Source of the DNA: Bacilli bacterium
Lineage (GTDB): Bacteria; Bacillota_I; Bacilli_A; RF39; UBA660
Assembly: GCA_017404385.1 (NCBI GenBank)
Contig: JAFRCK010000028.1
Location: 1 to 37,581 of the forward strand
Length of the DNA: 37,581 nucleotides
Direction of reading: 5' to 3'
Shown: positions 10,353 to 26,910 of the stretch, piece after piece
Position numbering within the stretch: position 1 is the first letter of the stretch
Layout of the letters: each line of letters opens with the position of its first letter
Made by a program: the position numbers and the translations under genes
Notes under the pieces: generated by a model
What the model was told of the DNA's origin: nothing
Database searches by the model: none
The model's input: only the letters and a program-made list of their open reading frames with translations

Positions 10353-10376
10353 ATATTTTTAAATTTTATTCATAGG
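10353..10376 (+). promoter_or_regulatory. Possible sigma-E-type promoter of spoIVA
   Basis: ATATTT (10353-10358) and CATAGG (10371-10376) are 12 nt apart. This resembles the sigma-E mother-cell promoter (ATATTT ... CATACA), though the spacing is about one nt short and the -10 has one mismatch. spoIVA is under sigma-E in Bacillus, and no TATAAT is seen here. Confidence 0.35.
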
Positions 10377-10401
10377 TTTTACTATAGAAAGTAGGGATTA
10401 T

Positions 10402-10806
10402 ATGGATAAAATAGATATTATTAAAAGTATAGGAGCCAGAACAAATGGTGATATATATTTAGGTGTAGTAGGTGCTGTTCGTACAGGTAAATCAACTTTT
10501 ATAAAAAAGTTTATAGAGAATTTAGTTGTTCCTAATATAACTGATGAATATGAAAAGAAAAGATGTTTAGATGAAATACCACAAACATCTGGTGGAAAAA
10601 CTATTATGACAATTGAACCTAAGTTTGTACCTAGTACAGCTGCTAAAATAAAAGTAGATGATTTTACTTGTAATATAAGATTAGTTGATTCTGTTGGTTA
10701 TATTATTCCACAGGCAAAAGGTTTTGAAGATGAGATGGGAGAACCAAGAATGGTTAAGACTCCTTGGTTCAATATGCGTTTGAGATACCCCTTGAAAAGG
10801 CAATAA
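10402..10806 (+). CDS. spoIVA: spoIVA, 5' part (gene interrupted by an integrated element)
   Basis: Codons 1-122 (10402-10767) encode the N-terminus of SpoIVA, the ATPase that polymerises on the forespore outer membrane as the base of the coat. The P-loop GAVRTGKS is at 24-31 and the LVDSVGY motif at 94-100. After Trp122, within the conserved TPWYEE motif, the sequence changes to 12 unrelated residues (FNMRLRYPLKRQ) and a stop, because element DNA begins. The rest of SpoIVA resumes at 18926. Splicing the two at the shared TGGT gives a 489-aa protein, close to the ~492 aa of Bacillus SpoIVA. As it stands, the 134-aa fragment cannot contain the full ATPase or the coat-assembly domains. Confidence 0.95.
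   Translation: MDKIDIIKSIGARTNGDIYLGVVGAVRTGKSTFIKKFIENLVVPNITDEYEKKRCLDEIPQTSGGKTIMTIEPKFVPSTAAKIKVDDFTCNIRLVDSVGYIIPQAKGFEDEMGEPRMVKTPWFNMRLRYPLKRQ
10765..10793. mobile_element. Left attachment junction (attL) of the spoIVA element
   Basis: TGGT (10765-10768) is the only sequence shared with the right junction. The spoIVA reading frame matches SpoIVA up to TGG and then departs. The arm GAGATACCC at 10782-10790 is the exact reverse complement of GGGTATCTC at the right end (18899-18907). Confidence 0.85.
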
Positions 10807-10883
10807 ATTACTAATAGTTATAAATATTAGAAGATACTAAAATTATATTAAGAATAAAATATAATTTAATAATAAAAAAAAGG

Positions 10884-10916
10884 AATTTATACTTCTACAT
10901 AGTATAAATTTTTTTT
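10884..10916 (+). terminator. Rho-independent terminator just inside the left end of the element
   Basis: AATTTATACT (10884-10893) and AGTATAAATT (10901-10910) form a perfect 10-bp stem with a 7-nt loop followed by TTTTTT. It would stop transcription entering from the spoIVA promoter before abiEi. Confidence 0.75.
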
Positions 10917-10927
10917 AAACTAAAAAG

Positions 10928-10945
10928 TCATTATTTAAATAATGA
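10928..10945. repeat. 18-bp perfect palindrome
   Basis: TCATTATTTAAATAATGA reads the same on both strands. It lies between the terminator and the abiE promoter, about 45 bp upstream of the -35 box, and could be a protein-binding site; no function is established. Confidence 0.4.
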
Positions 10946-10991
10946 TTATAACTATATTTACATTTATTATAATTATATTTTTGAAAAATGC

Positions 10992-11025
10992 TTGAATTTC
11001 TCCAGCAAATACCATATAATGGTAT
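10992..11025 (+). promoter_or_regulatory. abiE promoter with inverted-repeat operator
   Basis: TTGAAT (10992-10997), 17 nt, TATAAT (11015-11020) is a good vegetative promoter. The -10 is embedded in ATACCAT (11009-11015), ATA, ATGGTAT (11019-11025), a perfect inverted repeat. AbiEi antitoxins are known to repress their own promoter through inverted repeats, so this is the likely AbiEi operator. Confidence 0.7.
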
Positions 11026-11039
11026 TGAGAGGTGAAATT

Positions 11040-11630
11040 ATGATAATAACTAATAATATAGCTAAAAATAATTTAGATAATTATTCAAATAAAAATAATA
11101 AAATTAGTAGAGATATAAAAAATGGTAAATTATTTAGAATTGTTACTGGATTATATGAAACAAATCCAAATACACCAGGATATTTACTTGCAGGAAGTAT
11201 CTATGGACCATCATATATTTCTTTTGAATATGCATTATCTTATTACGGATTAATACCAGAGCGAGTAAATGTAATTACTTGTGCAACTTTTAATAAAAAA
11301 AAGAAAAAGAAATATAATACAAACTTTGGAACTTTTACTTATCGTGATATTCCAGAACAAGTTTATCCTGAAGAAATTCTCTTAAAAGAAGAATCTAATT
11401 ATTCATATCAAATAGCAACTCCAGAAAAAGCATTATGTGATAAATTATATACAATAAAACCATTAAGTAATTATTCTGATTTAGAAAACATGCTATTTAA
11501 TGATTTAAGAATTGATAAAGATGAATTTAATAAATTAGATTTTAATAATATTATTAAACTAAGTGATTTATATCATTCTACTAATGTTAGTTTACTAGGA
11601 AAATACTTAAGGAGGAATTTAAATGAATAA
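11040..11630 (+). CDS. abiEi: AbiEi-family antitoxin / transcriptional repressor
   Basis: This 196-aa protein has an N-terminal winged-helix segment (KISRDIKNGKLFRIVTGLYE, ~20-40) typical of AbiEi antitoxins, followed by the C-terminal antitoxin domain (~50-196, including ISFEYALSYYGLIPE and TPEKALCDKLY). In type IV toxin-antitoxin systems AbiEi represses the operon and counteracts AbiEii without direct protein binding. ATG 11040 follows GAGAGGTGA; an open upstream stretch overlaps the promoter. It overlaps abiEii by 8 nt. Carried near the left end, it probably helps keep the element in the cell line. Confidence 0.88.
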   Translation: MIITNNIAKNNLDNYSNKNNKISRDIKNGKLFRIVTGLYETNPNTPGYLLAGSIYGPSYISFEYALSYYGLIPERVNVITCATFNKKKKKKYNTNFGTFTYRDIPEQVYPEEILLKEESNYSYQIATPEKALCDKLYTIKPLSNYSDLENMLFNDLRIDKDEFNKLDFNNIIKLSDLYHSTNVSLLGKYLRRNLNE

Positions 11631-12483
11631 TATCATAGAACAAATGTTATCAAAATATGAAATAAAAAATATAAATGATGAAATAAATGCATTAAAAGAA
11701 ATAATACAAGAAATTGTATTATCTGGTTTATCTAGAGGTAATTTCTTTAACGAAGCGGCTTTTTATGGTGGAACAGCACTTAGAATTTTTTATAAACTAG
11801 ATAGATTTTCTGAAGATTTAGACTTTGCGTTATTAAAACCTAATAAGGATTTTGATTTAACTAAATATTTTGAATGCATAGATAAAGAATTAAAAGCATA
11901 TGGATTAAATTTAGAAATTAATACAAAAGAAAAATCTATTGATTCTAATATTACATCTGCATTTTTAAAAGGAGATACTTTAGAACATATATTAAAATTC
12001 TTTCCCAATGAAGAAAATCATGAATATGATCATTTATTAAAAAATATAAAAATAAAATTTGAAGTAGACATTAATCCACCAAGTGGAGCAACATATGATG
12101 ATGAATATAAATTATTACCAAGTCCACATCAAATAAAACTTTATGATAAAGAATCGTTGTTTGCAGGAAAAATACATGCTATATTATGTAGAAACTGGAA
12201 AACAAGAGTAAAAGGAAGAGATTTATATGATTACGTTTTCTTTTTAGCAAATAATACAAAAGTTAATTTAGATTTAGTTAAAAACAAATTAATAGATTCA
12301 AATTATATTAATTCAAATGATGAATTTAATTTAAAAACATTAAAAGAATTATTAAAAAAGAAATTTGATGAAATAGATTATATAGAAGCAAAAGAAGATG
12401 TAATTCCATTTATAAAAAATGTAGATAGTTTAGAAATATGGAACAAAGATTTTTTTATATCAATTACTGATAAAATGGACTAG
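11623..12483 (+). CDS. abiEii: AbiEii-family nucleotidyltransferase toxin
   Basis: This 286-aa protein shows the nucleotidyltransferase signature: GGTALR at 49-54 and SEDLDF at 63-68, with Asp65 and Asp67 as metal ligands. The conserved KGRDLYD motif lies further along (~193-199). AbiEii/MenT-type toxins are GTP- or CTP-using nucleotidyltransferases; characterised relatives modify tRNA or otherwise arrest growth, and the pair can give phage abortive infection. An AAGGAGGAATTTAA ribosome binding site lies inside abiEi. All catalytic motifs look intact, so the toxin is probably active. Confidence 0.9.
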   Translation: MNNIIEQMLSKYEIKNINDEINALKEIIQEIVLSGLSRGNFFNEAAFYGGTALRIFYKLDRFSEDLDFALLKPNKDFDLTKYFECIDKELKAYGLNLEINTKEKSIDSNITSAFLKGDTLEHILKFFPNEENHEYDHLLKNIKIKFEVDINPPSGATYDDEYKLLPSPHQIKLYDKESLFAGKIHAILCRNWKTRVKGRDLYDYVFFLANNTKVNLDLVKNKLIDSNYINSNDEFNLKTLKELLKKKFDEIDYIEAKEDVIPFIKNVDSLEIWNKDFFISITDKMD

Positions 12484-12491
12484 CAAGCACT

Positions 12492-12527
12492 GAATTTGTA
12501 CTCCCGGGCAAGTACAAATTCTTTTAT
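12492..12527 (+). terminator. Rho-independent terminator after abiEii
   Basis: GAATTTGTACT (12492-12502) and AGTACAAATTC (12511-12521) form a perfect 11-bp stem around CCCGGGCA and run into TTTTATT. Confidence 0.8.
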
Positions 12528-12639
12528 TATGGGTAATTCCCCAATCCCCCTTTAACAAAATTCATAGCGTCACCAATTTTATTCTCACATTTTTGTTATA
12601 AAAACTGACAAAATGCTACTCAATATGATATTTTTTTGA

Positions 12640-12645
12640 TATAAT
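12640..12645 (+). promoter_or_regulatory. -10 box for the surface-protein gene
   Basis: TTTGATATAAT places TATAAT at 12640-12645, about 35 nt before the ATG at 12680, with AAGGAG at 12663-12668. No convincing -35 box is seen at 17 nt. Confidence 0.4.
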
Positions 12646-12679
12646 TGTAAATAATAATATAATAAGGAGTTTAGGTAGT

Positions 12680-15421
12680 ATGAATAAAAGTAGAAAAATA
12701 ATAGTATTATTAATAACAATAATATTTTCAATGATAAATATGGGAGTAGTAAAAGCTGATACTAAGAATATAGAAGTAGATAGTATTAGTGTTAAAGAAA
12801 AATCAGGAACAATTACAGTAGTTGATCCTGTTTTGTCGTCTAATGAAGTAACAAGTAATATTACATTTAACAAGAAAGATGACTTTGTAACATTTGAATT
12901 AAAAATAAAAAATAATGAAAATGATAAATATAAAATTGTTTCTATTAAAGATAATAATACTAATAATAATTTAAATATAGAATATTCCTATAGCGAAGAC
13001 TTTATAAATAAAAATGAAATAGGTACGGTAACAATAAAGTTAACATATAAAAATAAATTAGTTAATGTAGAAAAAATAGATTTAAATAATTTATCTATCA
13101 CAATTACTTTAGAAAATGAAGATAAAGAGCAAGAAGAGATAATAATTAATCCAATAACAGGTGATAATATATTAAAATTCTTAGTTTTATTGATAATTGC
13201 AATAACAGGTTTAATTTTTGTTAGAAAGAAAGTAAAGTATAAAGGATTTAAACTTGGTAGTTTCTTAATCTTGATTTCTATAATTATATTGCCATTTTCT
13301 ATATTAGCAAGTGAAAAATATGAAATTAAATTGAAGTTTACTGATATTGTTATTAAAGGTGAATTTGAAAAATTAAATGTTACATTTAATTTAAATAATG
13401 GTGAAGAACCAGTTATAAAGGAAGTTACATATAATGAAAAGATTGGAACATTACCACCTTCACCAAGTAAAGATGGTTACACATTTGATAAATGGTTAGA
13501 TGAAAATGAAATTGAGGTAACAGAGGACACAATTATTACTAAATCAATAACTGCAAATGCTACATATAATATAATAAAATATACTATTACATTTGATAGT
13601 AATGGTGGAAACATTATAGAAGATAAAATTATTAATTATGGTGATTCACTTGGAGAACTTGAAGAACCAGTTAATGGAGATAAAAGATTTCTTGGATGGT
13701 ATACTAATTTAACTGATGGAATAAAGGTTGATGAAAATTATATCCCTGAATCTGATTTAACATTATATGCAAAATATAAAGATTTAATATGTAAAAAAGC
13801 AACTGAAATTCATACTGCAACATGTTCAAATAGCGGCTCTTGTTATAAAGTAGGCTACAAAGATGGTGGAGAAAAAGGAATTACAACAATAACATTTGGA
13901 ACAATACCTCATGCAAATTTAACTGCTGGAAATGCATATGACTGTGATGTAAATGGTGATGGAACATACGATTCAGATAAAGAAAGATTTTATTATTTAA
14001 GAACAAAAGGTGATAATGCAGTATTAATATCTAATTATAATTATGAAGGCGAAGCAGGACAAATTATAGATAATAATTATGTGTATAGTGAAGCTATTAC
14101 ATTATTACCTACTAAAGACGATTGGGAAAATGTTGAAGTGACATTTAATAATAGGCTTGATTCTTCTGATACAACAACTTATGCAGCAAGATTTATTAAT
14201 TTTGATGATTTAGAAGCTGCAACTGGCAAAAGTGATTTTTCAGCAGTTGGTAGTTTAGATGATTATACTTATTTACAAGAAAATACAAGATTTATTTCAA
14301 ATAATATTGGAAGGTCTGGTATATGGCTAGAACATGTAGTAGAAGATGGTGTTAACAAACTATATAGAATTCATTTTGGAGGAAAAGAAAGATTTGTTAT
14401 AGACGTTGAAAGCAGTTCAAAAAATGTGGCAAGGCCAGTAATAGAAGTACCTATGAATTATATGGAAACAACTGATGATAGTGCAATTACATATACTATT
14501 ACATTTGAAACAAATGGTGGAACAGAAATCAGTCCTATTGAGATAGAAGAAACTGATTCTATTAAAGCGTTCCCTGTAACTGCGAGAAAAGGTTATAATT
14601 TTATAGGATGGTATTATGATGAAGAATTAACAAATGAAGTAAGTGAATCTGATACATTTACTGAAGACGCTACTATATATGCTAAATGGGAAGTAGTTGC
14701 TGCAGTATCTGTTAATGGAACACAGTATAATTCAATAACTACAGCACTTGCTGATACAACTTCTGGTGTTGAAACAACAATAGTATTATTAAAAGATATT
14801 GAAGAAAATATCACGATTAGCAATAATAAAATAATTGTACTAGATTTAAATGACTTTACTCTAAAAAATAAAAACGATGCAGCTATAATTAATAATAATG
14901 TAAATTTAAAGGTTATTAATGGCAATGTTATAACAAATTCATCTTCTAATGGAGCAGTAAATAATAATGCAACTGGTACATTGGAGCTAGTAGATGTAAC
15001 TGTTACATCTACTGGAGGTAAACAAGCATTATATAATAAGGGTGGTACTGTTACTATAACAGGAAATTCTTATTTAAGTAATACAGTAAATAATAGAGCA
15101 GCAGTTCATAATTTAGAAAATGGAACAATGAATATAAAGAGTGGCACTATTGTTGCTGCAGGATATCACGCAGTTTATAATGAATCTGGAATATTAAATA
15201 TTGGTGAAAAAGATGGAACTATTGATAATAGTACACCAGTATTTGAAGGAGAAAAGTCTGGCTTATCAATTGCGAGTGGGCAATCATTTAATTTCTATGA
15301 TGGAATTATTAAAGGTAAAACAAATGCAATTGATCAACCATCATTATTAGATGATAAAGAAGATGGTGCATCGCTTCTTACAGGGACTGATGGTGAGTAT
15401 AAAACTGCTTATATGGAATAA
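12680..15421 (+). CDS. Large surface-anchored protein with InlB/Listeria-Bacteroides-type repeats
   Basis: This 913-aa protein begins with a signal peptide (1-26, ending VVKA). An extracellular beta-rich segment follows (~27-155). Then comes NPITGDN at 157-163, directly ahead of a hydrophobic stretch (164-181) and RKK, the layout of a sortase sorting signal but in the interior. A second hydrophobic segment (192-210) ends FSILASE. Beyond it are InlB B-like repeats (about 233-300, 301-368 and 613-675) with the hallmark TFDSNGG ... FLGWY ... LYAKY pattern. A unique domain with DVNGDGTYDSD (possible calcium loop) lies between. The last ~220 residues are Asn/Thr-rich with repeated short strands, like a beta-helix. 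No C-terminal LPxTG is seen. Likely role: adhesion or host-surface interaction (inference). Confidence 0.75.
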   Translation: MNKSRKIIVLLITIIFSMINMGVVKADTKNIEVDSISVKEKSGTITVVDPVLSSNEVTSNITFNKKDDFVTFELKIKNNENDKYKIVSIKDNNTNNNLNIEYSYSEDFINKNEIGTVTIKLTYKNKLVNVEKIDLNNLSITITLENEDKEQEEIIINPITGDNILKFLVLLIIAITGLIFVRKKVKYKGFKLGSFLILISIIILPFSILASEKYEIKLKFTDIVIKGEFEKLNVTFNLNNGEEPVIKEVTYNEKIGTLPPSPSKDGYTFDKWLDENEIEVTEDTIITKSITANATYNIIKYTITFDSNGGNIIEDKIINYGDSLGELEEPVNGDKRFLGWYTNLTDGIKVDENYIPESDLTLYAKYKDLICKKATEIHTATCSNSGSCYKVGYKDGGEKGITTITFGTIPHANLTAGNAYDCDVNGDGTYDSDKERFYYLRTKGDNAVLISNYNYEGEAGQIIDNNYVYSEAITLLPTKDDWENVEVTFNNRLDSSDTTTYAARFINFDDLEAATGKSDFSAVGSLDDYTYLQENTRFISNNIGRSGIWLEHVVEDGVNKLYRIHFGGKERFVIDVESSSKNVARPVIEVPMNYMETTDDSAITYTITFETNGGTEISPIEIEETDSIKAFPVTARKGYNFIGWYYDEELTNEVSESDTFTEDATIYAKWEVVAAVSVNGTQYNSITTALADTTSGVETTIVLLKDIEENITISNNKIIVLDLNDFTLKNKNDAAIINNNVNLKVINGNVITNSSSNGAVNNNATGTLELVDVTVTSTGGKQALYNKGGTVTITGNSYLSNTVNNRAAVHNLENGTMNIKSGTIVAAGYHAVYNESGILNIGEKDGTIDNSTPVFEGEKSGLSIASGQSFNFYDGIIKGKTNAIDQPSLLDDKEDGASLLTGTDGEYKTAYME

Positions 15422-15450
15422 AAATTGAGTATTTATGCTCAATTTTTTTA
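15420..15450 (+). terminator. Rho-independent terminator after the surface-protein gene
   Basis: AAAATTGAG (15421-15429) pairs with CTCAATTTT (15438-15446), followed by further T residues. Confidence 0.7.
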
Positions 15451-15485
15451 TTGTTTATAAATTTTTTAATTTTTTGTAAACTTGT

Positions 15486-15491
15486 TATAAT
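15486..15491 (+). promoter_or_regulatory. -10 box for the 282-aa element protein
   Basis: CTTGTTATAAT puts TATAAT at 15486-15491 with an extended-type TG upstream; the ATG at 15522 follows AGGGTGG. Confidence 0.45.
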
Positions 15492-15521
15492 AATGTCACT
15501 ATTTTTTAAAAGGGTGGTTTA

Positions 15522-16370
15522 ATGGATGCAATTATTAGAAATATTCAAGAAGAAATAAATTCAGAAAGATATAAAAAAGTTTCTGAAATAGTATCTCTTT
15601 ATGAAAATAGGGAAAATATTGAAATAGAAGAACATTTAATAAATATAATTGAAGGATTTGATTATAGCAACGCTAGTGATAACGATATTAAGCATAAAAT
15701 AAATATGTATAATGACTTTTTTTCTTCACTTAAAACCAATGTTATTGAAAGTAATATAGTTTTAAAAAATATCGTAAGCTTAAACTCTTTGATTGCTTCC
15801 CAATTAAAAAACTTATTAATTGAATTAAATATTAAGGTAACAAGCTTTAAAGAACAAAATGAGTTTTATCATAATTATTCTATAGATTTTAATTTGCCTG
15901 AAAACTATATTTTCAAAGTACAAAGGCCTATTGAGATAATTAAGAATATTGAAATTAATGGAGAAGAAAAATATATACAAATATTACCTAGAAAAGAAAG
16001 AAAAATATATGATGAATATAATGAATTTGCAAATAAATTAGGGAATATAGAAAATTTTATTCTATTTGTTAAAATAAACTATGTTACTTTACCTCTTAAG
16101 TTAAAATGTACAGGTATAGATTTAGGTAGTAATAATAATCTATTAATTAGTTTTTATCATGATTTTGATAAAGTAAATAATGATGAAGAAGTATCTGATA
16201 CATTAGGTTATGATAATAAGAAATATTATCAATATAAAGAAAGTGGTTTTATAAAGTTAGGAATTCAGCTTAAAGTAGGAGATGCTAAAAGAAATAAGAC
16301 TGTGGATGGCACTATTATTAAAGATATAGTTTTAGCTTCAGAAAATGATCAAGTTTTAAATATAAGATAG
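15522..16370 (+). CDS. Element-encoded protein of unknown function
   Basis: This 282-aa protein has no signal peptide or membrane segment. The N-terminal ~125 residues look helical (IQEEINSERYKKVSEIVSLYE and onward). The C-terminal ~150 residues look beta-rich, with many short hydrophobic strands and Asn/Asp turns. I recognise no family or catalytic motif. It has its own promoter and terminator inside the element, so it is an independent cargo gene. Element maintenance, defence or regulation are all possible. Confidence 0.5.
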   Translation: MDAIIRNIQEEINSERYKKVSEIVSLYENRENIEIEEHLINIIEGFDYSNASDNDIKHKINMYNDFFSSLKTNVIESNIVLKNIVSLNSLIASQLKNLLIELNIKVTSFKEQNEFYHNYSIDFNLPENYIFKVQRPIEIIKNIEINGEEKYIQILPRKERKIYDEYNEFANKLGNIENFILFVKINYVTLPLKLKCTGIDLGSNNNLLISFYHDFDKVNNDEEVSDTLGYDNKKYYQYKESGFIKLGIQLKVGDAKRNKTVDGTIIKDIVLASENDQVLNIR

Positions 16371-16427
16371 TAAATTCCTAGAAAAATTACTAAAAAAAGG
16401 AAGAAAAAATAATAATTAAATAATAAG

Positions 16428-16456
16428 AAATCCTCTAAAAATTAGAGGATTTTTTC
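16428..16456 (+). terminator. Rho-independent terminator
   Basis: TCCTCTAA (16431-16438) and TTAGAGGA (16442-16449) form an 8-bp stem, extended by A-T pairs, followed by TTTTTT. Confidence 0.75.
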
Positions 16457-16492
16457 CTATGGTCCAAATATCCTACCTTTGAGATAATTATA

Positions 16493-16514
16493 TTGAACAA
16501 AGCGCTAAGTTCAA
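16493..16514. promoter_or_regulatory. 22-bp operator-like dyad before the HTH gene
   Basis: TTGAAC (16493-16498) and GTTCAA (16509-16514) flank a central AGCGCT palindrome (16501-16506), with AA on each inner side. The whole 22-bp block is symmetric except for those AA spacers. It ends 15 nt before the HTH start codon. The GC-containing core is unusual in this AT-rich region. Confidence 0.5.
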
Positions 16515-16529
16515 AAGAAAGTGGGATAT

Positions 16530-17036
16530 ATGGAAGATAGTATTGTGATATATGCAGTCATACCTAAGGAAATATATACTACAAAATTGTTAACTAGTGG
16601 TGAAAAATTAATTGCGGAAAGAATTACGTCTTTATGTAAGAAAGAAGGATATTGTTGGATAACTAATAAAGCACTAGGAGATATGTATGGAATAAGAGAA
16701 GATAAAATATCTAAATATATAAGAAATTTAAAAAATTATGGATTTATAAAATGTATATATAGAAAGAATGATCAATATAAATCTAATAGAGTTATATATT
16801 TAACCAATTATATATGGGATAAATATACTGGTGATAGTAGATTATATGAACAAGAGTCTATTGGTTATTTAAAAGGACATAGTAATAAATATAATATTAA
16901 TTATAGTAATAAGTATAATATTCCAACTAAGAAAAATTTAATAGAACCAGAATGGTTAGGAAAAAATATAGAAGATACTAAAGCGTCTAAGGAAGAACAA
17001 GAAGAAATGGAAAACTTACTAAAAGATTATAAATAA
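16530..17036 (+). CDS. Helix-turn-helix DNA-binding protein (replication-initiator/phage-type)
   Basis: This 168-aa protein has an N-terminal winged helix-turn-helix (~10-90): TSGEKLIAERITSLCKKEGY, then ITNKALGDMYGIREDKISKYIRNLKNYGFI as the recognition module. This is the layout of HTH proteins at the start of phage and plasmid replication initiators. The middle is Asn/Tyr-rich linker. The acidic C-terminus (EPEWLGKNIEDTKASKEEQEE) resembles the end of such phage proteins. AAGTGGGA precedes ATG 16530. It heads the group leading to the recombinase, so it may regulate excision or help replicate the circular form; both are inferences. Confidence 0.65.
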   Translation: MEDSIVIYAVIPKEIYTTKLLTSGEKLIAERITSLCKKEGYCWITNKALGDMYGIREDKISKYIRNLKNYGFIKCIYRKNDQYKSNRVIYLTNYIWDKYTGDSRLYEQESIGYLKGHSNKYNINYSNKYNIPTKKNLIEPEWLGKNIEDTKASKEEQEEMENLLKDYK

Positions 17037-17050
17037 AGGGGGGTAAAAAA

Positions 17051-17131
17051 ATGTCTAATATAATAAGATTAGTAATTAATAATAATATTTCTCATATTCT
17101 TAATAAGAATAGGAGAAATGCTTATGTATAA
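17051..17131 (+). CDS. 26-aa micro-ORF in the recombinase operon
   Basis: ATG 17051 follows a strong AAAGGGGGGT site and is in frame for 26 codons before TAA at 17129-17131. The peptide contains IIRLVINNNISHILNKN and ends RRNAYV. Its end overlaps the start of the next ORF at 17124, suggesting translational coupling. Too small to assign. It could be a recombination-directionality peptide or just a coupling leader. Confidence 0.4.
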   Translation: MSNIIRLVINNNISHILNKNRRNAYV

Positions 17132-17306
17132 AACAATAGAAATATTTGAAGGAGAATTAGATCTAAAAGAAATACTAAAAAGTTCTTTTTATAACTACTA
17201 TAAAAAAAGAATAAATGAGTTGCAAAAAGTAGATAATAAAGATAAAATAAATATGACTATTAGTAATATATTGTCAAATAATAAGGAAGGAGTTTGTAAT
17301 GTATAA
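17124..17306 (+). CDS. 60-aa small protein directly upstream of the recombinase
   Basis: This short charged, helical protein (FYNYYKKRINELQKVDNKDK in the middle) ends with GVCNV and overlaps the recombinase start by 8 nt, so the two are translationally coupled. ATG 17124 is chosen because AGGAG at 17111-17115 is too close to the alternative ATG at 17118. Its position and size make it the best candidate recombination directionality factor, but there is no recognisable motif. Confidence 0.5.
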   Translation: MYKTIEIFEGELDLKEILKSSFYNYYKKRINELQKVDNKDKINMTISNILSNNKEGVCNV

Positions 17307-18879
17307 TAGATACTTTTTTGATGATATGAATTACTATATAGCATTATATATAAGGTTATCTAGAGAGGATGGAGATGATTTAGAAAGTGAAAGTATTACT
17401 AATCAAAGATCTTTATTATTAAATTTTTTAGATTCTCATAAATTAAAGCCTGTGGAAATATATATTGATGATGGATTTAGTGGTGGAAATTTTGAAAGAC
17501 CAGCTTTTAAAAGGATGTTAACTGATTTAGAAAATAAAAAAATAAATTGTGTTATTACTAAAGATTTATCAAGACTAGGACGTGATTTTATAGAAACTGG
17601 GAGATATGTTGAAAGATATTTCCCAGAAAATCGCATTAGATATATAGCATTAAATGATGATATTGATACTTTTAATGAACATTGTGGTGGAAGTGATATG
17701 ATGCCATTTAAATTAGGTATGAATGATATGTATGCTAAAGATATATCTAAAAAAGTAAGAGCAACTCTTTATAATATGAAAAGAGATGGTAAGTTTTGTG
17801 GAAGTCATCCTTCATATGGATATTTAAGAGATCCTGAGGATAAACATCATTTAATTCCTGATCCAGAAACAGCACCAATAGTTAAAAAAATATTTGAATT
17901 ATATTTAGATGGTTATGGTATTAGTAAAATAGCGGATATAATGAAAAAAGAAGGTTATATAACACCAATTGTTAGAAAGTTAAGGGAAGAAAGTGTTCCA
18001 AAGAAATATCATCCTGAAATATGGAAACCTGCTACTGTGAATAATATATTAAGAAATAGAACTTACACTGGTTGTACTATTCAACATACTTCACAAAATG
18101 TTAACTATAAAAGTAAGATAAGAAGAAAAGTACCTAAATCAGAATGGATGATAAAAGAAAATACTCATGAAGCTCTTATAGATAAAGATACATTTGATAT
18201 AGTTCAATGTATGAGAAATAAATCTAATAATTATGATGAGAATAGAAGAAATGTAGATTATGCTTTAAGTGGTTTAGTTTATTGTAAGGACTGCGGACAG
18301 AGAATGTCTATCAATTATGATAAATATAGAGATAGAACTTTTATGAATTGTACTACCTATAGAAGAATGAGTAAATATAATATTTGTTTTTCTCACTATG
18401 TTAATTATAAGAAATTAGAAAAAACTATAAACGATAGTATTAGAAAACTTGCAAATAAATATAAGAAAGATGAAAAAGAATTTGAAAGTTTAATTAAAAA
18501 TCAATATATAGATCCAAAAGAAGAATTAAGAATAAAGATTAATAGTTTAAAAAAAGAATTATCTTCACTAGAAAATAAACAAGATACTTTATACGATGAT
18601 AGGTTTAATGGAATTATTACTGTGGAAACTTATCAAAGATTATATAATGCTACTGAAAATAAAATAGGCACAGTAAAAATGAATATAAGAGAATTAGGAA
18701 ATAAACTTAAAAATATAAAAGATGATGATTCTCTTGTATTAAATAATAAAAAAATTATAGAGGATTTTTTAAGTATAAAAGAGCCTACAAAGGAAATGTT
18801 ACATAAGATTATAGATAAGATATATATTAATAAAGATAAAGAAGTAGAAGTGCACTATAAAGTATGTAACAATCAGTAG
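17299..18879 (+). CDS. Large serine recombinase (site-specific, SpoIVCA/TnpX-like)
   Basis: This 526-aa protein has the complete large-serine-recombinase layout. The N-terminal resolvase domain carries the nucleophile Ser21 in YIRLSRED, with IDDGFSGGNFERPAF and ITKDLSRLGRD as active-site arginine motifs. A recombinase DNA-binding domain follows (~170-300, including GYRTY-like NNILRNRTYTG). A zinc ribbon has CKDC, then single Cys residues near NCTTY and NICFSH. A coiled coil (~390-470) and C-terminal tail complete it. It cuts attachment sites with a 2-bp stagger and joins them, integrating or excising the element. AAGGAAGGAG gives strong translation. Its stop is 43 bp from the right TGGT, typical for an integrase beside its own att site. 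No terminator separates it from the spoIVA 3' part. Confidence 0.96.
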   Translation: MYNRYFFDDMNYYIALYIRLSREDGDDLESESITNQRSLLLNFLDSHKLKPVEIYIDDGFSGGNFERPAFKRMLTDLENKKINCVITKDLSRLGRDFIETGRYVERYFPENRIRYIALNDDIDTFNEHCGGSDMMPFKLGMNDMYAKDISKKVRATLYNMKRDGKFCGSHPSYGYLRDPEDKHHLIPDPETAPIVKKIFELYLDGYGISKIADIMKKEGYITPIVRKLREESVPKKYHPEIWKPATVNNILRNRTYTGCTIQHTSQNVNYKSKIRRKVPKSEWMIKENTHEALIDKDTFDIVQCMRNKSNNYDENRRNVDYALSGLVYCKDCGQRMSINYDKYRDRTFMNCTTYRRMSKYNICFSHYVNYKKLEKTINDSIRKLANKYKKDEKEFESLIKNQYIDPKEELRIKINSLKKELSSLENKQDTLYDDRFNGIITVETYQRLYNATENKIGTVKMNIRELGNKLKNIKDDDSLVLNNKKIIEDFLSIKEPTKEMLHKIIDKIYINKDKEVEVHYKVCNNQ

Positions 18880-18896
18880 GAATTATTTTTAAAAGT

Positions 18897-18926
18897 AAGG
18901 GTATCTCTATTTGGGTACGTGGTGGT
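18897..18926. mobile_element. Right attachment junction (attR) of the spoIVA element
   Basis: The TGGT at 18923-18926 marks return to the spoIVA frame (TGG TAT GAA = W-Y-E). AAGGGTATCTC at 18897-18907 is the other arm; its GGGTATCTC is the reverse complement of GAGATACCC near the left end. In the predicted circle the arms are symmetric about the base step 10765/10766 of the core. Confidence 0.85.
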
Positions 18927-20029
18927 ATGAAGAAGAAATACCTTTTATTGAAGCAGCTGAAATAGGTACTGAAAAAGTAATTAGAGATCATTCTACAATA
19001 GGTATAGTAGTAACAACAGATGGATCTATTGGTGATATACCAAGAAGTGGTTATTTAGATGCTGAAACAAATGTAATTAGTGAATTAAAAGAAATAGGTA
19101 AACCATTTATAGTACTTCTTAATTCTACTCATCCAACAGATACAGATACAATTAATCTATCTGAAAAAATGAGGAATGAATATGGGGTCCCAGTTTTACC
19201 TATATCAGTAGAGAATATGAATGAAAAGGATATATATGGAATATTAAAAGAAGCTTTATATGAATTTCCAGTTCTTAGTATTAAAGTTAAAATACCAGAT
19301 TGGATTGGTTCATTAAAAAGTAATCATCCTATAAAAAAGATATATACTGATCAAATAAAAGAAAGTATTATTGAAGTAGATAAACTAAGAGATGTTGAAA
19401 CAATAAATAATCATTTTACTGAATGTGATCAAATAGAAAAGGCATATGTTTCAAATGTTGATTCATCTACTGGTATAGTAACTATTACTTTAACTGCTCC
19501 TAATAATTTATATGATGAAGTATTAAAAGAAGTAATAGGTACCAATATAAATAGTAGAGCTAAACTTCTTAGTATATTCCAAGACTATAATGAAACTAAA
19601 GAAGAATTTGAAGAATACAAAAATGCATTAAAGATGGTTAAATCTACAGGTTATGGTATAGCTATGCCAACTTTAAAAGATATGAAATTAGATAAACCAG
19701 AAATAATTAAACAAAATGGTAGATATGGAGTTAAATTAAAAGCTGTTGCTTCTTCAGTTCATATGATTAAAGTGGATGTAGAAAGTACTTTTGAACCAAT
19801 TATAGGTTCTGAAATACAATGTAAAGAATTAATAGATTATCTTGGTAAAGATAATAATGAAGATATTTGGCAAAGTGAAATATTTGGTAGAAGTTTAGAC
19901 TCAATAGTACAAGAAGGAATACAAGCTAAACTATCTTTAATGCCTGATAATTTAAGATTTAAATTACAAAATACACTATCAAAAGTTGTAAATAAAGGGT
20001 CAAATAATCTAATAGCTATAGTATTATAG
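18911..20029 (+). CDS. spoIVA: spoIVA, 3' part (gene interrupted by an integrated element)
   Basis: From TAT at 18926, 367 codons encode the rest of SpoIVA, starting YEEEIPFIEAAEIGTEKVI. The remainder of the ATPase fold follows (STIGIVVTTDGSIGDI; the NST region at FIVLLNSTHP). Then come the middle domain and the C-terminal SpoVM/membrane-interacting region, ending NLIAIVL as in Bacillus. The residues before Tyr (TTG 18911 onward) belong to the element. A weak AAGGG before that TTG could allow some translation, but the fragment lacks the P-loop. No frameshift or internal stop is present over 367 codons, so the sequence looks under selection. This favours regulated excision over an old dead insertion. 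Confidence 0.95.
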   Translation: MGTWWYEEEIPFIEAAEIGTEKVIRDHSTIGIVVTTDGSIGDIPRSGYLDAETNVISELKEIGKPFIVLLNSTHPTDTDTINLSEKMRNEYGVPVLPISVENMNEKDIYGILKEALYEFPVLSIKVKIPDWIGSLKSNHPIKKIYTDQIKESIIEVDKLRDVETINNHFTECDQIEKAYVSNVDSSTGIVTITLTAPNNLYDEVLKEVIGTNINSRAKLLSIFQDYNETKEEFEEYKNALKMVKSTGYGIAMPTLKDMKLDKPEIIKQNGRYGVKLKAVASSVHMIKVDVESTFEPIIGSEIQCKELIDYLGKDNNEDIWQSEIFGRSLDSIVQEGIQAKLSLMPDNLRFKLQNTLSKVVNKGSNNLIAIVL

Positions 20030-26061: not shown

Positions 26062-26097
26062 ATGCCTATTTCATATATTTTAATGAAGGAGGATATT

Positions 26098-26910
26098 ATG
26101 ACATTTACAAAAATGCATAGTTTGGGAAATGATTATGTCTATATTGATTTATTTAATAATAAATTATCGTTTAAGGAACAAATATCAAGATTAAGTCAGG
26201 TACTTAGTAATAGAAATTATGGAGTAGGATCTGATGGAATTATTTTAATAAGTAAAAGTGATAAAGCAGATTTTAAGTTTCAAATATATAATAGTGATGG
26301 TTCTGAGGCAAGTATGTGTGGAAATGGAATAAGATGCGCTGGAGCTTATGTATATCGGAAAGGCTTAACCAAAAAGACAAATATTAGTTTTGAAACAAAG
26401 TCTGGTATTAGAAAGGTTAGACTTATTTTTCAAAATAATAAAATAGATTCAGTGACTGCGGATTTAGGTGAACCAGCAATTAATCTAAGAAGAGTTAATG
26501 TAGATAACCAGTTTATTTTTACACCAGTTTATGTAGGAAATACTCATGGTGTTACGGTAGTTAAGTCAGTTGATAATATAGATGTTAACGCTCTTGGTGA
26601 AGTGATTGAAAAGAAAATACCTAATTCTAATTTGGAGTTTATTGAGTTAATGGATTCTAATAATATTAAGATGAGAGTTTATGAAAGAGGAAGTAAAGAA
26701 ACACTTGCTTGTGGAACAGGGGCGGCTGCTTCTGTAGTATATACATATTTAAGTGGTTTAACTGGAAGAAAAGTTAATGTTAAATTATTGGGTGGTGAAT
26801 TAGAGGTTAATTATAGTAGTGAAGATAATCATGTATATATTTCTTCACCAGTTGAGGAAGTATTTAATGGTGAAATGGATGATAGAAAAGTATTAAAACT
26901 AGTTAAATAA
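26098..26910 (+). CDS. dapF: Diaminopimelate epimerase
   Basis: This 270-aa enzyme interconverts LL- and meso-diaminopimelate for lysine and peptidoglycan synthesis. The two catalytic cysteines are in MCGNGIRC (Cys74) and ACGTGAAA (Cys205). The N-terminal FTKMHSLGNDY and the GNTHGVTVV segment are typical. AAGGAGG sets ATG 26098; upstream in-frame starts at 26062 and 26083 lack a site. Its presence indicates that the organism makes meso-DAP and has a cell wall, unlike true Mollicutes. Confidence 0.96.
   Translation: MTFTKMHSLGNDYVYIDLFNNKLSFKEQISRLSQVLSNRNYGVGSDGIILISKSDKADFKFQIYNSDGSEASMCGNGIRCAGAYVYRKGLTKKTNISFETKSGIRKVRLIFQNNKIDSVTADLGEPAINLRRVNVDNQFIFTPVYVGNTHGVTVVKSVDNIDVNALGEVIEKKIPNSNLEFIELMDSNNIKMRVYERGSKETLACGTGAAASVVYTYLSGLTGRKVNVKLLGGELEVNYSSEDNHVYISSPVEEVFNGEMDDRKVLKLVK

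Follow-up and report, generated by a model that had tools for sequence, protein, structure and literature searches.

How can spoIVA, a sporulation gene, lie in two open halves with 8,158 bp of other DNA between them? The question arises on contig JAFRCK010000028.1 (37,581 nucleotides; called the window below, always in its whole length) of a Bacilli bacterium of the family UBA660, whose genome assembly holds 1.30 Mb in 43 contigs and is 93.5% complete. We propose that the intervening DNA is a serine-recombinase island, belonging to a mobile family that occupies spoIVA codon 122, and that it is predicted to excise in the sporulating mother cell, restoring the 489-codon gene. Judging from the sequence, we give this reading a probability of roughly 0.7. 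The split gene and its junctions, all on the forward strand, are laid out as follows.

10402..10767, forward: spoIVA 5′ part, codons 1-122, Walker A inside (PF09547 1-127, E 3.2e-54)
10765..10768, forward: core of the left attachment site (attL), left TGGT (from the sequence)
10768..18925, forward: intervening element, 8,158 bp (from the sequence, junctions, domain matches and arms)
10784..10789, forward: attL arm GATACC, 16 nucleotides (nt) past the Trp codon
18900..18905, forward: arm GGTATC of the right attachment site (attR), 17 nt ahead of the Trp codon
18923..18926, forward: attR core, right TGGT (from the sequence)
18926..20029, forward: spoIVA 3′ part, codons 123-489 plus stop (PF09547 120-237, PF20438, PF20439)

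A preliminary description of this DNA had placed the split after Trp122, with the frame resuming at Tyr123 8,158 bp further on and a TGGT common to both junctions. The same coordinates are obtained here, and the Pfam matches of the two pieces complement one another, with SpoIVA_ATPase 1-127 on the left piece and 120-237 on the right, where SpoIVA_middle and SpoIVA_C are also found. The Trp122 codon (10765-10767) is followed by 12 element-coded residues and a stop at 10804-10806, giving a 134-aa product, while in the right half a Trp codon at 18923-18925 precedes Tyr123 at 18926, with codons through 20026 and the stop at 20027-20029. It is unlikely that the two pieces act as separate proteins, because the ATPase domain is cut. 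A second intact spoIVA, which the preliminary description had raised as an objection to itself, was looked for, and none was found elsewhere in this 93.5%-complete genome.

Exact restoration of the frame by excision had been predicted from the junctions, and a protein of precisely this form exists. P0121, an uninterrupted 489-aa SpoIVA encoded on three public contigs of up to 20,731 bp, agrees with the window halves at every residue (122/122 and 367/367), joined at Trp122/Tyr123. Seven more interrupted proteins (P0002, P0003, P0006, P0007, P0010, P0011 and P0020) share an identical 122-aa N-terminal part with six intact proteins, in a comparison that covers the proteins of two homologue listings, and two of them, P0003 and P0007, carry differing tails on one N-terminal part, that of P0205. 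When the 134-aa truncated product served as query, 3,053 homologues were returned, and 82 of the best 120 depart from SpoIVA after the Trp with a foreign tail, a script-based count in which a few tails may be native. In P0018, the interrupted N-terminal part bears the name 'hypothetical protein'.

The split is shared well beyond the window. A SpoIVA match is present in 341 of 386 sampled family genomes, from which 52 suspect genomes were hand-picked for re-examination and sequence stretches taken from about 40. At least 22 of the 386 (window counted), in 19 genera, have a split at Trp122 that is confirmed by its arms, and the recurrence of the same codon with the same arms in 22 genomes takes the split far beyond chance. 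The attL arm stands at 16-17 nt in 22 of 23 attL sites, the 23rd contig ending at the TGG, and the attR arm stands 17 nt ahead of the Trp codon in 22 of 23 attR sites, the 23rd starting 3 nt before the junction. Together, these predict a circle junction of the form GGTATC-N17-TGG-N16/17-GATACC, in which inverted arms surround a TGG core, the arrangement to be expected at the attP of a serine integrase. For the seven elements with their two ends on a single contig, the lengths are 3,507, 3,607, 5,196, 8,158, 11,102, 13,449 and 13,866 bp. Comparison of sister genomes, which the preliminary description had put forward, thus finds both intact and interrupted versions of spoIVA with the same codon hit. 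Its interpretation stands as to the element, the restoration of the frame and the target gene, stays a prediction as to excision in the mother cell, and has to be widened as to its one-locus scope, since a mobile family uses one spoIVA codon across 19 genera.

Among named relatives, the Trp122 split recurs in 7 of the best 80 loci out of more than 591 candidates (L030, L034, L035, L046, L074, L096 and L098); the labels in the records of these relatives include Bacilli, Tenericutes and Erysipelotrichaceae, and most of the genomes are metagenome-assembled, several having gut isolate names. In other families, the split was seen in none of the 74 genomes with a SpoIVA match from a class-wide sample of 395, two of these matches being very weak and three partial or frame-broken. 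Four further family genomes (G200, G151, G013 and G300; loci L152, L158, L172 and L175) have a contig start or end at codon 122 or within 3 nt of it. Such breaks would fit a fork in the assembly graph, if occupied and empty alleles coexist.

Recombinase and site are closely paired. With the three best candidates per genome scored among the matches listed, all 18 full-length large serine recombinases (LSRs) of the family genomes with at least 57% identity to that of the window (its own included) adjoin a spoIVA C half, and the next full-length matches among those listed reach at most 45%. Viral contigs yielded nine relatives of the LSR at 31-45% identity and one distant match to the spoIVA N part. 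G062, G277 and G099, of three different genera, agree at 100.0% over the last 2,000 nt before the right junction, yet the C halves of their spoIVA genes reach only 70-75% identity; identical right ends beside diverged spoIVA genes show that the element is mobile. In G019, a partial LSR (L171; 65% over 306 aa) lies on a 4.1-kb contig (G019:C24) that ends inside the LSR and is 98.5% identical to the element of G384, and the spoIVA of G019 is intact; the bin holds either both allele states or a contamination.

The right end of the element carries what we read as an excision operon, and its predicted promoter resembles that of spoIVA itself.

10371..10381, forward: -10-like site of the spoIVA promoter (CATAGGTTTTA), score 15.6 (second of 75,162 window positions; this promoter was kept out of the training set of the motif)
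17093..17100, forward: -10 predicted for the excision operon (CATATTCT), of mother-cell type, score 11.6 (first of 16,240 element positions and third of 75,162 window positions)
17124..17306, forward: 60-aa small open reading frame (ORF), candidate recombination directionality factor (RDF) (homologues before related LSRs; without a PHROG)
17299..18879, forward: LSR, 526 aa (PF00239, PF07508, PF13408; phrog_95 integrase, 340.6 bits)

The recombinase has Resolvase, Recombinase and Zn_ribbon_recom domains, as a large serine recombinase should, and its gene ends 46 nt ahead of Tyr123, which agrees with the earlier placement of a recombinase gene beside the right junction. Its reading frame overlaps that of the small ORF by 8 nt. 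The small-ORF family pattern, MYxxxEFY...LKxxLKSCIYxYY, occurs before 17 of the 18 Trp122 LSRs with a readable right end, and a small ORF is visible on inspection before the 18th (L160). Its conserved position and size make this ORF a candidate directionality factor. The promoter motif was trained on 100 regions upstream of spoIVA at loci with an uninterrupted codon 122, the window left out, of which 93 with CATA in range were used and 7 without it were not. Its -10 part, CATATAnTTA, resembles the -10 element of sigma-E and sigma-K promoters, CATACAnT. In a scan of both strands, with the operon site taken 10-60 nt upstream of the small ORF, this site ranks first among all positions in 11 of 18 elements and fourth or better in 17. 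A score of at least 8 is reached by 14 of 16 distinct operons, a figure that overstates their independence as the elements are mutually related, versus 0 of 67 other element ORFs. Among host ORFs of at least 100 aa in the window, taken from the first ATG, 1 of 28 scores at least 8, namely spoIVA.

The carriers also show an undecayed gene and signs of a retained sporulation programme. Decayed spoIVA in relatives with the element, the other objection raised at the outset, did not appear among those examined: of 23 C halves, 22 keep an open frame as far as the normal end, and the 23rd, L136, is cut by a second element. For the C half, three split pairs within a genus give ratios of nonsynonymous to synonymous substitution rates (dN/dS) of 0.046, 0.060 and 0.076, two cross-genus pairs 0.100 and 0.113, and one intact pair 0.093. 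Each of the 13 split genomes tested has retained two sigma-E/sigma-K-like genes. A seemingly split sigma gene in G169 was rejected, being an ordinary contig end with a 77-nt assembly overlap. G006, of the same genus as the window, has no spoIVA match and no sigma-E/sigma-K-like gene, and there sporulation has apparently been lost within the genus.

The predicted mother-cell-type promoter, the candidate directionality factor, the retained sporulation sigma factors and the unrelaxed selection together point to excision in the mother cell. Sigma-E controls spoIVA in B. subtilis and C. difficile, as stated in the available parts of PMC7911427 and PMC5607322. Here, RNA polymerase with sigma-E (or sigma-K) would read the operon promoter as it would that of spoIVA, and the small protein would serve as the directionality factor for LSR-driven excision. 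In essence, sigma-E would activate spoIVA and the excision operon alike, with the result that a complete SpoIVA message could be made only after excision. The mother-cell copy of spoIVA would be rejoined, while the forespore would keep the element; as the mother cell dies, loss of the element there would be costless, and the spore would inherit it. A bolder version, which we offer tentatively and with the balance somewhat against it, is that related LSR and small-ORF elements are specialised on sporulation-linked genes (spoIVA codon 122, a LysM-amidase gene and a Ca2+-ATPase gene), each with a mother-cell promoter. The mother-cell chromosome would then be routinely rearranged, in one place or several, at the onset of sporulation, and the sigma-E-driven excision that rebuilds spoIVA would be a built-in delay timer.

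Several points weigh against developmental excision. P0121 may stem from an element-free strain instead of an excised copy, and a recent insertion would equally give an undecayed gene under unrelaxed selection. No excised-circle junction was found by a pattern search of the assemblies of 338 family genomes, nor in viral contigs; the single circle-pattern match, in G248, has the look of coding sequence and is regarded as fortuitous, no search having been made beside it. The motif is not exclusive to the Trp122 family, as 7 of 27 LSRs outside codon 122 score at least 12 within 330 nt upstream (L136 was left out of these for its short upstream sequence). The operon site of L134 ranks 15, and the best motif site in the window, at 26072 (+) with 16.7, stands before dapF. 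The -35 half of most operons fits the sigma-E consensus poorly, and the motif is no proof that a particular sigma factor uses it. Lastly, 45 of the 386 family genomes are without a SpoIVA match, some of them being incomplete, and loss of sporulation seems to be tolerated in the family.

The missing circle and the genomes without SpoIVA would also suit an ordinary mobile element for which spoIVA is simply the attachment site, the carriers being asporogenous and empty and occupied strains coexisting, with no developmental excision. The identical right ends in three genera favour this account too, as does a second, unrelated LSR family at spoIVA codon ~400 with lower motif scores (1.5-9.9, five loci). 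However, a spoIVA-type promoter stands on the excision operon and on none of the 67 other element ORFs, the small ORF is conserved, the sporulation sigma genes persist in every split genome tested, and 0 of 23 halves are decayed, so that we consider an ordinary element unlikely, if the most serious of the competitors. A reading in which stress or growth phase, instead of a mother-cell sigma factor, regulates excision is far less probable. It can appeal to SP-beta, which excises after DNA damage too, and to the yin element of C. botulinum, whose excision depends on growth phase (available parts of PMC4191935 and PMC10747680), but the operon promoter motif matches that of spoIVA. An assembly chimera or binning artefact, for which the 43 contigs and the several relatives' contigs that end exactly at codon 122 might speak, can be dismissed, given that both halves and the element share one contig in the window, in five other genomes and in L046, with equal arm geometry.

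Beyond codon 122, spoIVA has a second insertion hot spot at codon ~400 (APSIH|MIRV, core CATAT), with right sides at L072, L136, L137, L162, L163 and L164 and left sides at L165, L167, L168 and L187. The elements there are 7.1-7.6 kb long (L072, L136 and L137), and in G354 both spoIVA sites are occupied. Their unrelated LSRs were rejected as members of the same system on ~25% identity and the low motif scores given above. Two other genes are split as well, both of which we take to be linked to sporulation. In a LysM/Amidase_3 gene sits an element whose LSR is 42-43% related, both halves and an in-frame core being found in G026 (L232/L212) and right halves in G046 and G314 (L213 and L215); these LSRs are accompanied by a similar small ORF, with motif scores of 10.2-14.4. 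Another element with a related LSR interrupts a P-type Ca2+-ATPase gene after VAVP, with both halves and an in-frame core in G078 (L233/L221), where the insert holds an ABC-transporter-like operon by eye, and right halves in G283 and G320 (L216 and L227). Many wider-family LSRs (L192-L211) are preceded by an ORF of ~34-47 aa with the pattern F-x-x-NGKxLQxIIExFL, again by eye. Because a short ORF precedes LSRs outside spoIVA too, the module with the small ORF may have arisen before the spoIVA clade did.

The remainder of the element in the window consists of the following genes.

11037..11630, forward: AbiEi-like antitoxin (PADLOC AbiEi, 223 bits; NF047376, 30 bits, under its cut-off of 150)
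11623..12483, forward: AbiEii nucleotidyltransferase of a type IV toxin-antitoxin system (PF08843, E 1.6e-28; PADLOC AbiEii, 347 bits)
12680..15421, forward: 913-aa surface protein with Listeria-Bacteroides repeats (PF09479, E 1.8e-41)
15522..16370, forward: 282-aa protein (without a family match in Pfam, NCBIfam, PHROGs and PADLOC)
16521..17036, forward: 171-aa protein, weakly replication-initiation-like (phrog_270, 44.6 bits; without a Pfam or NCBIfam match)

A prophage was considered and rejected, as no phage structural genes were found among the ORFs of this element with Pfam, NCBIfam and PHROGs. Its only PHROG matches are the replication-initiation-like protein, which is weak, and the recombinase. 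In related elements, 'major tail protein' families match three members (in the top 25 of 168 PHROGs), which we tentatively attribute to Ig-like surface domains, Big_2 being present in three members. No relaxase was found in the window element with Pfam and NCBIfam, and the Mob_Pre relaxase is matched by three of the 82 cargo ORFs that related elements carry. A recombinase of the SCCmec type (Ccr) was likewise rejected, the CcrB score being 114 bits versus a cut-off of 900. Outside the element, the split spoIVA has spoVIF upstream and an HU-like gene downstream. Further along, site 26072 lies 26 nt ahead of the likely dapF start at 26098, from which dapF scores 16.7; this diaminopimelate epimerase is possibly expressed in the mother cell.

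SpoIVA forms the base of the coat and is the product of an early sigma-E gene, and the rearrangement would therefore need to come early. If the proposed excision is true, many uncultured Bacilli need a DNA rearrangement to form spores, and their genomes are being misread as having a broken spoIVA, with spore-forming capacity under-called from metagenome-assembled genomes. The system would also provide a compact recombination module of an LSR, a small protein and a ~48 bp site, with a conserved target.

How does this element compare with known ones? Published elements in sporulation genes occupy sigK, spsM, spoVFB, spoVR, gerE and yabG, according to the available parts of PMC4191935, PMC5025042, PMC5595907 and PMC10747680, on which the comparisons below also draw. 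The introduction of PMC10747680 lists sigK, spsM, spoVFB and gerE as targets, and the word 'spoIVA' is absent from its text; the passages on spoIVA in PMC5025042 present it solely as a sigma-E target. The earlier suggestion that spoIVA is an undescribed target agrees with a search of literature titles and abstract openings, in which no interrupted spoIVA appeared and which left subscription journals and preprints mostly outside. Like skin, SP-beta and gin, the present element splits a mother-cell sporulation gene into open parts, has a frame-restoring direct repeat and carries its own recombinase.

The closest likeness is to SP-beta in spsM of B. subtilis (PMC4191935), where the LSR SprA works with a 58-aa RDF, SprB, matching the LSR and the candidate accessory protein of ~60 aa found here. 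The sprB promoter is of mother-cell type and lies near the start codon, its -10 being perfect and its -35 imperfect, as is predicted here, and both elements restore a sporulation gene in frame, for spoIVA again by prediction. However, SP-beta is a phage whose sprA is vegetatively expressed, whereas the spoIVA elements span 3.5-13.9 kb (n = 7), that of the window without a recognised phage structural gene. Unlike in SP-beta, the small ORF overlaps the LSR gene in the manner of a single operon, and an early sigma-E gene is the target. The skin element, which interrupts sigK in B. subtilis and in C. difficile, also uses an LSR, and in C. difficile synthesis of the RDF governs excision (PMC5025042). 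Its target is a late sigma factor, in contrast to SpoIVA, a structural ATPase made under sigma-E. The gin element in gerE of B. cereus, like the window element, is not a phage, and is excised at sporulation by a serine recombinase with an added factor, GirX; it differs in its 28.6 kb, its three recombinases, its target and an excision that is proven by experiment, where ours is predicted (PMC5595907). In C. botulinum, yin likewise lies in a sporulation gene, yabG, and its integrated and excised forms coexist in culture, although it is prophage-like and has another target (PMC10747680). Set beside these systems, what is new here is spoIVA as the target, its place early in the programme, a compact window element without recognised phage structural genes, and the use of one codon family-wide.

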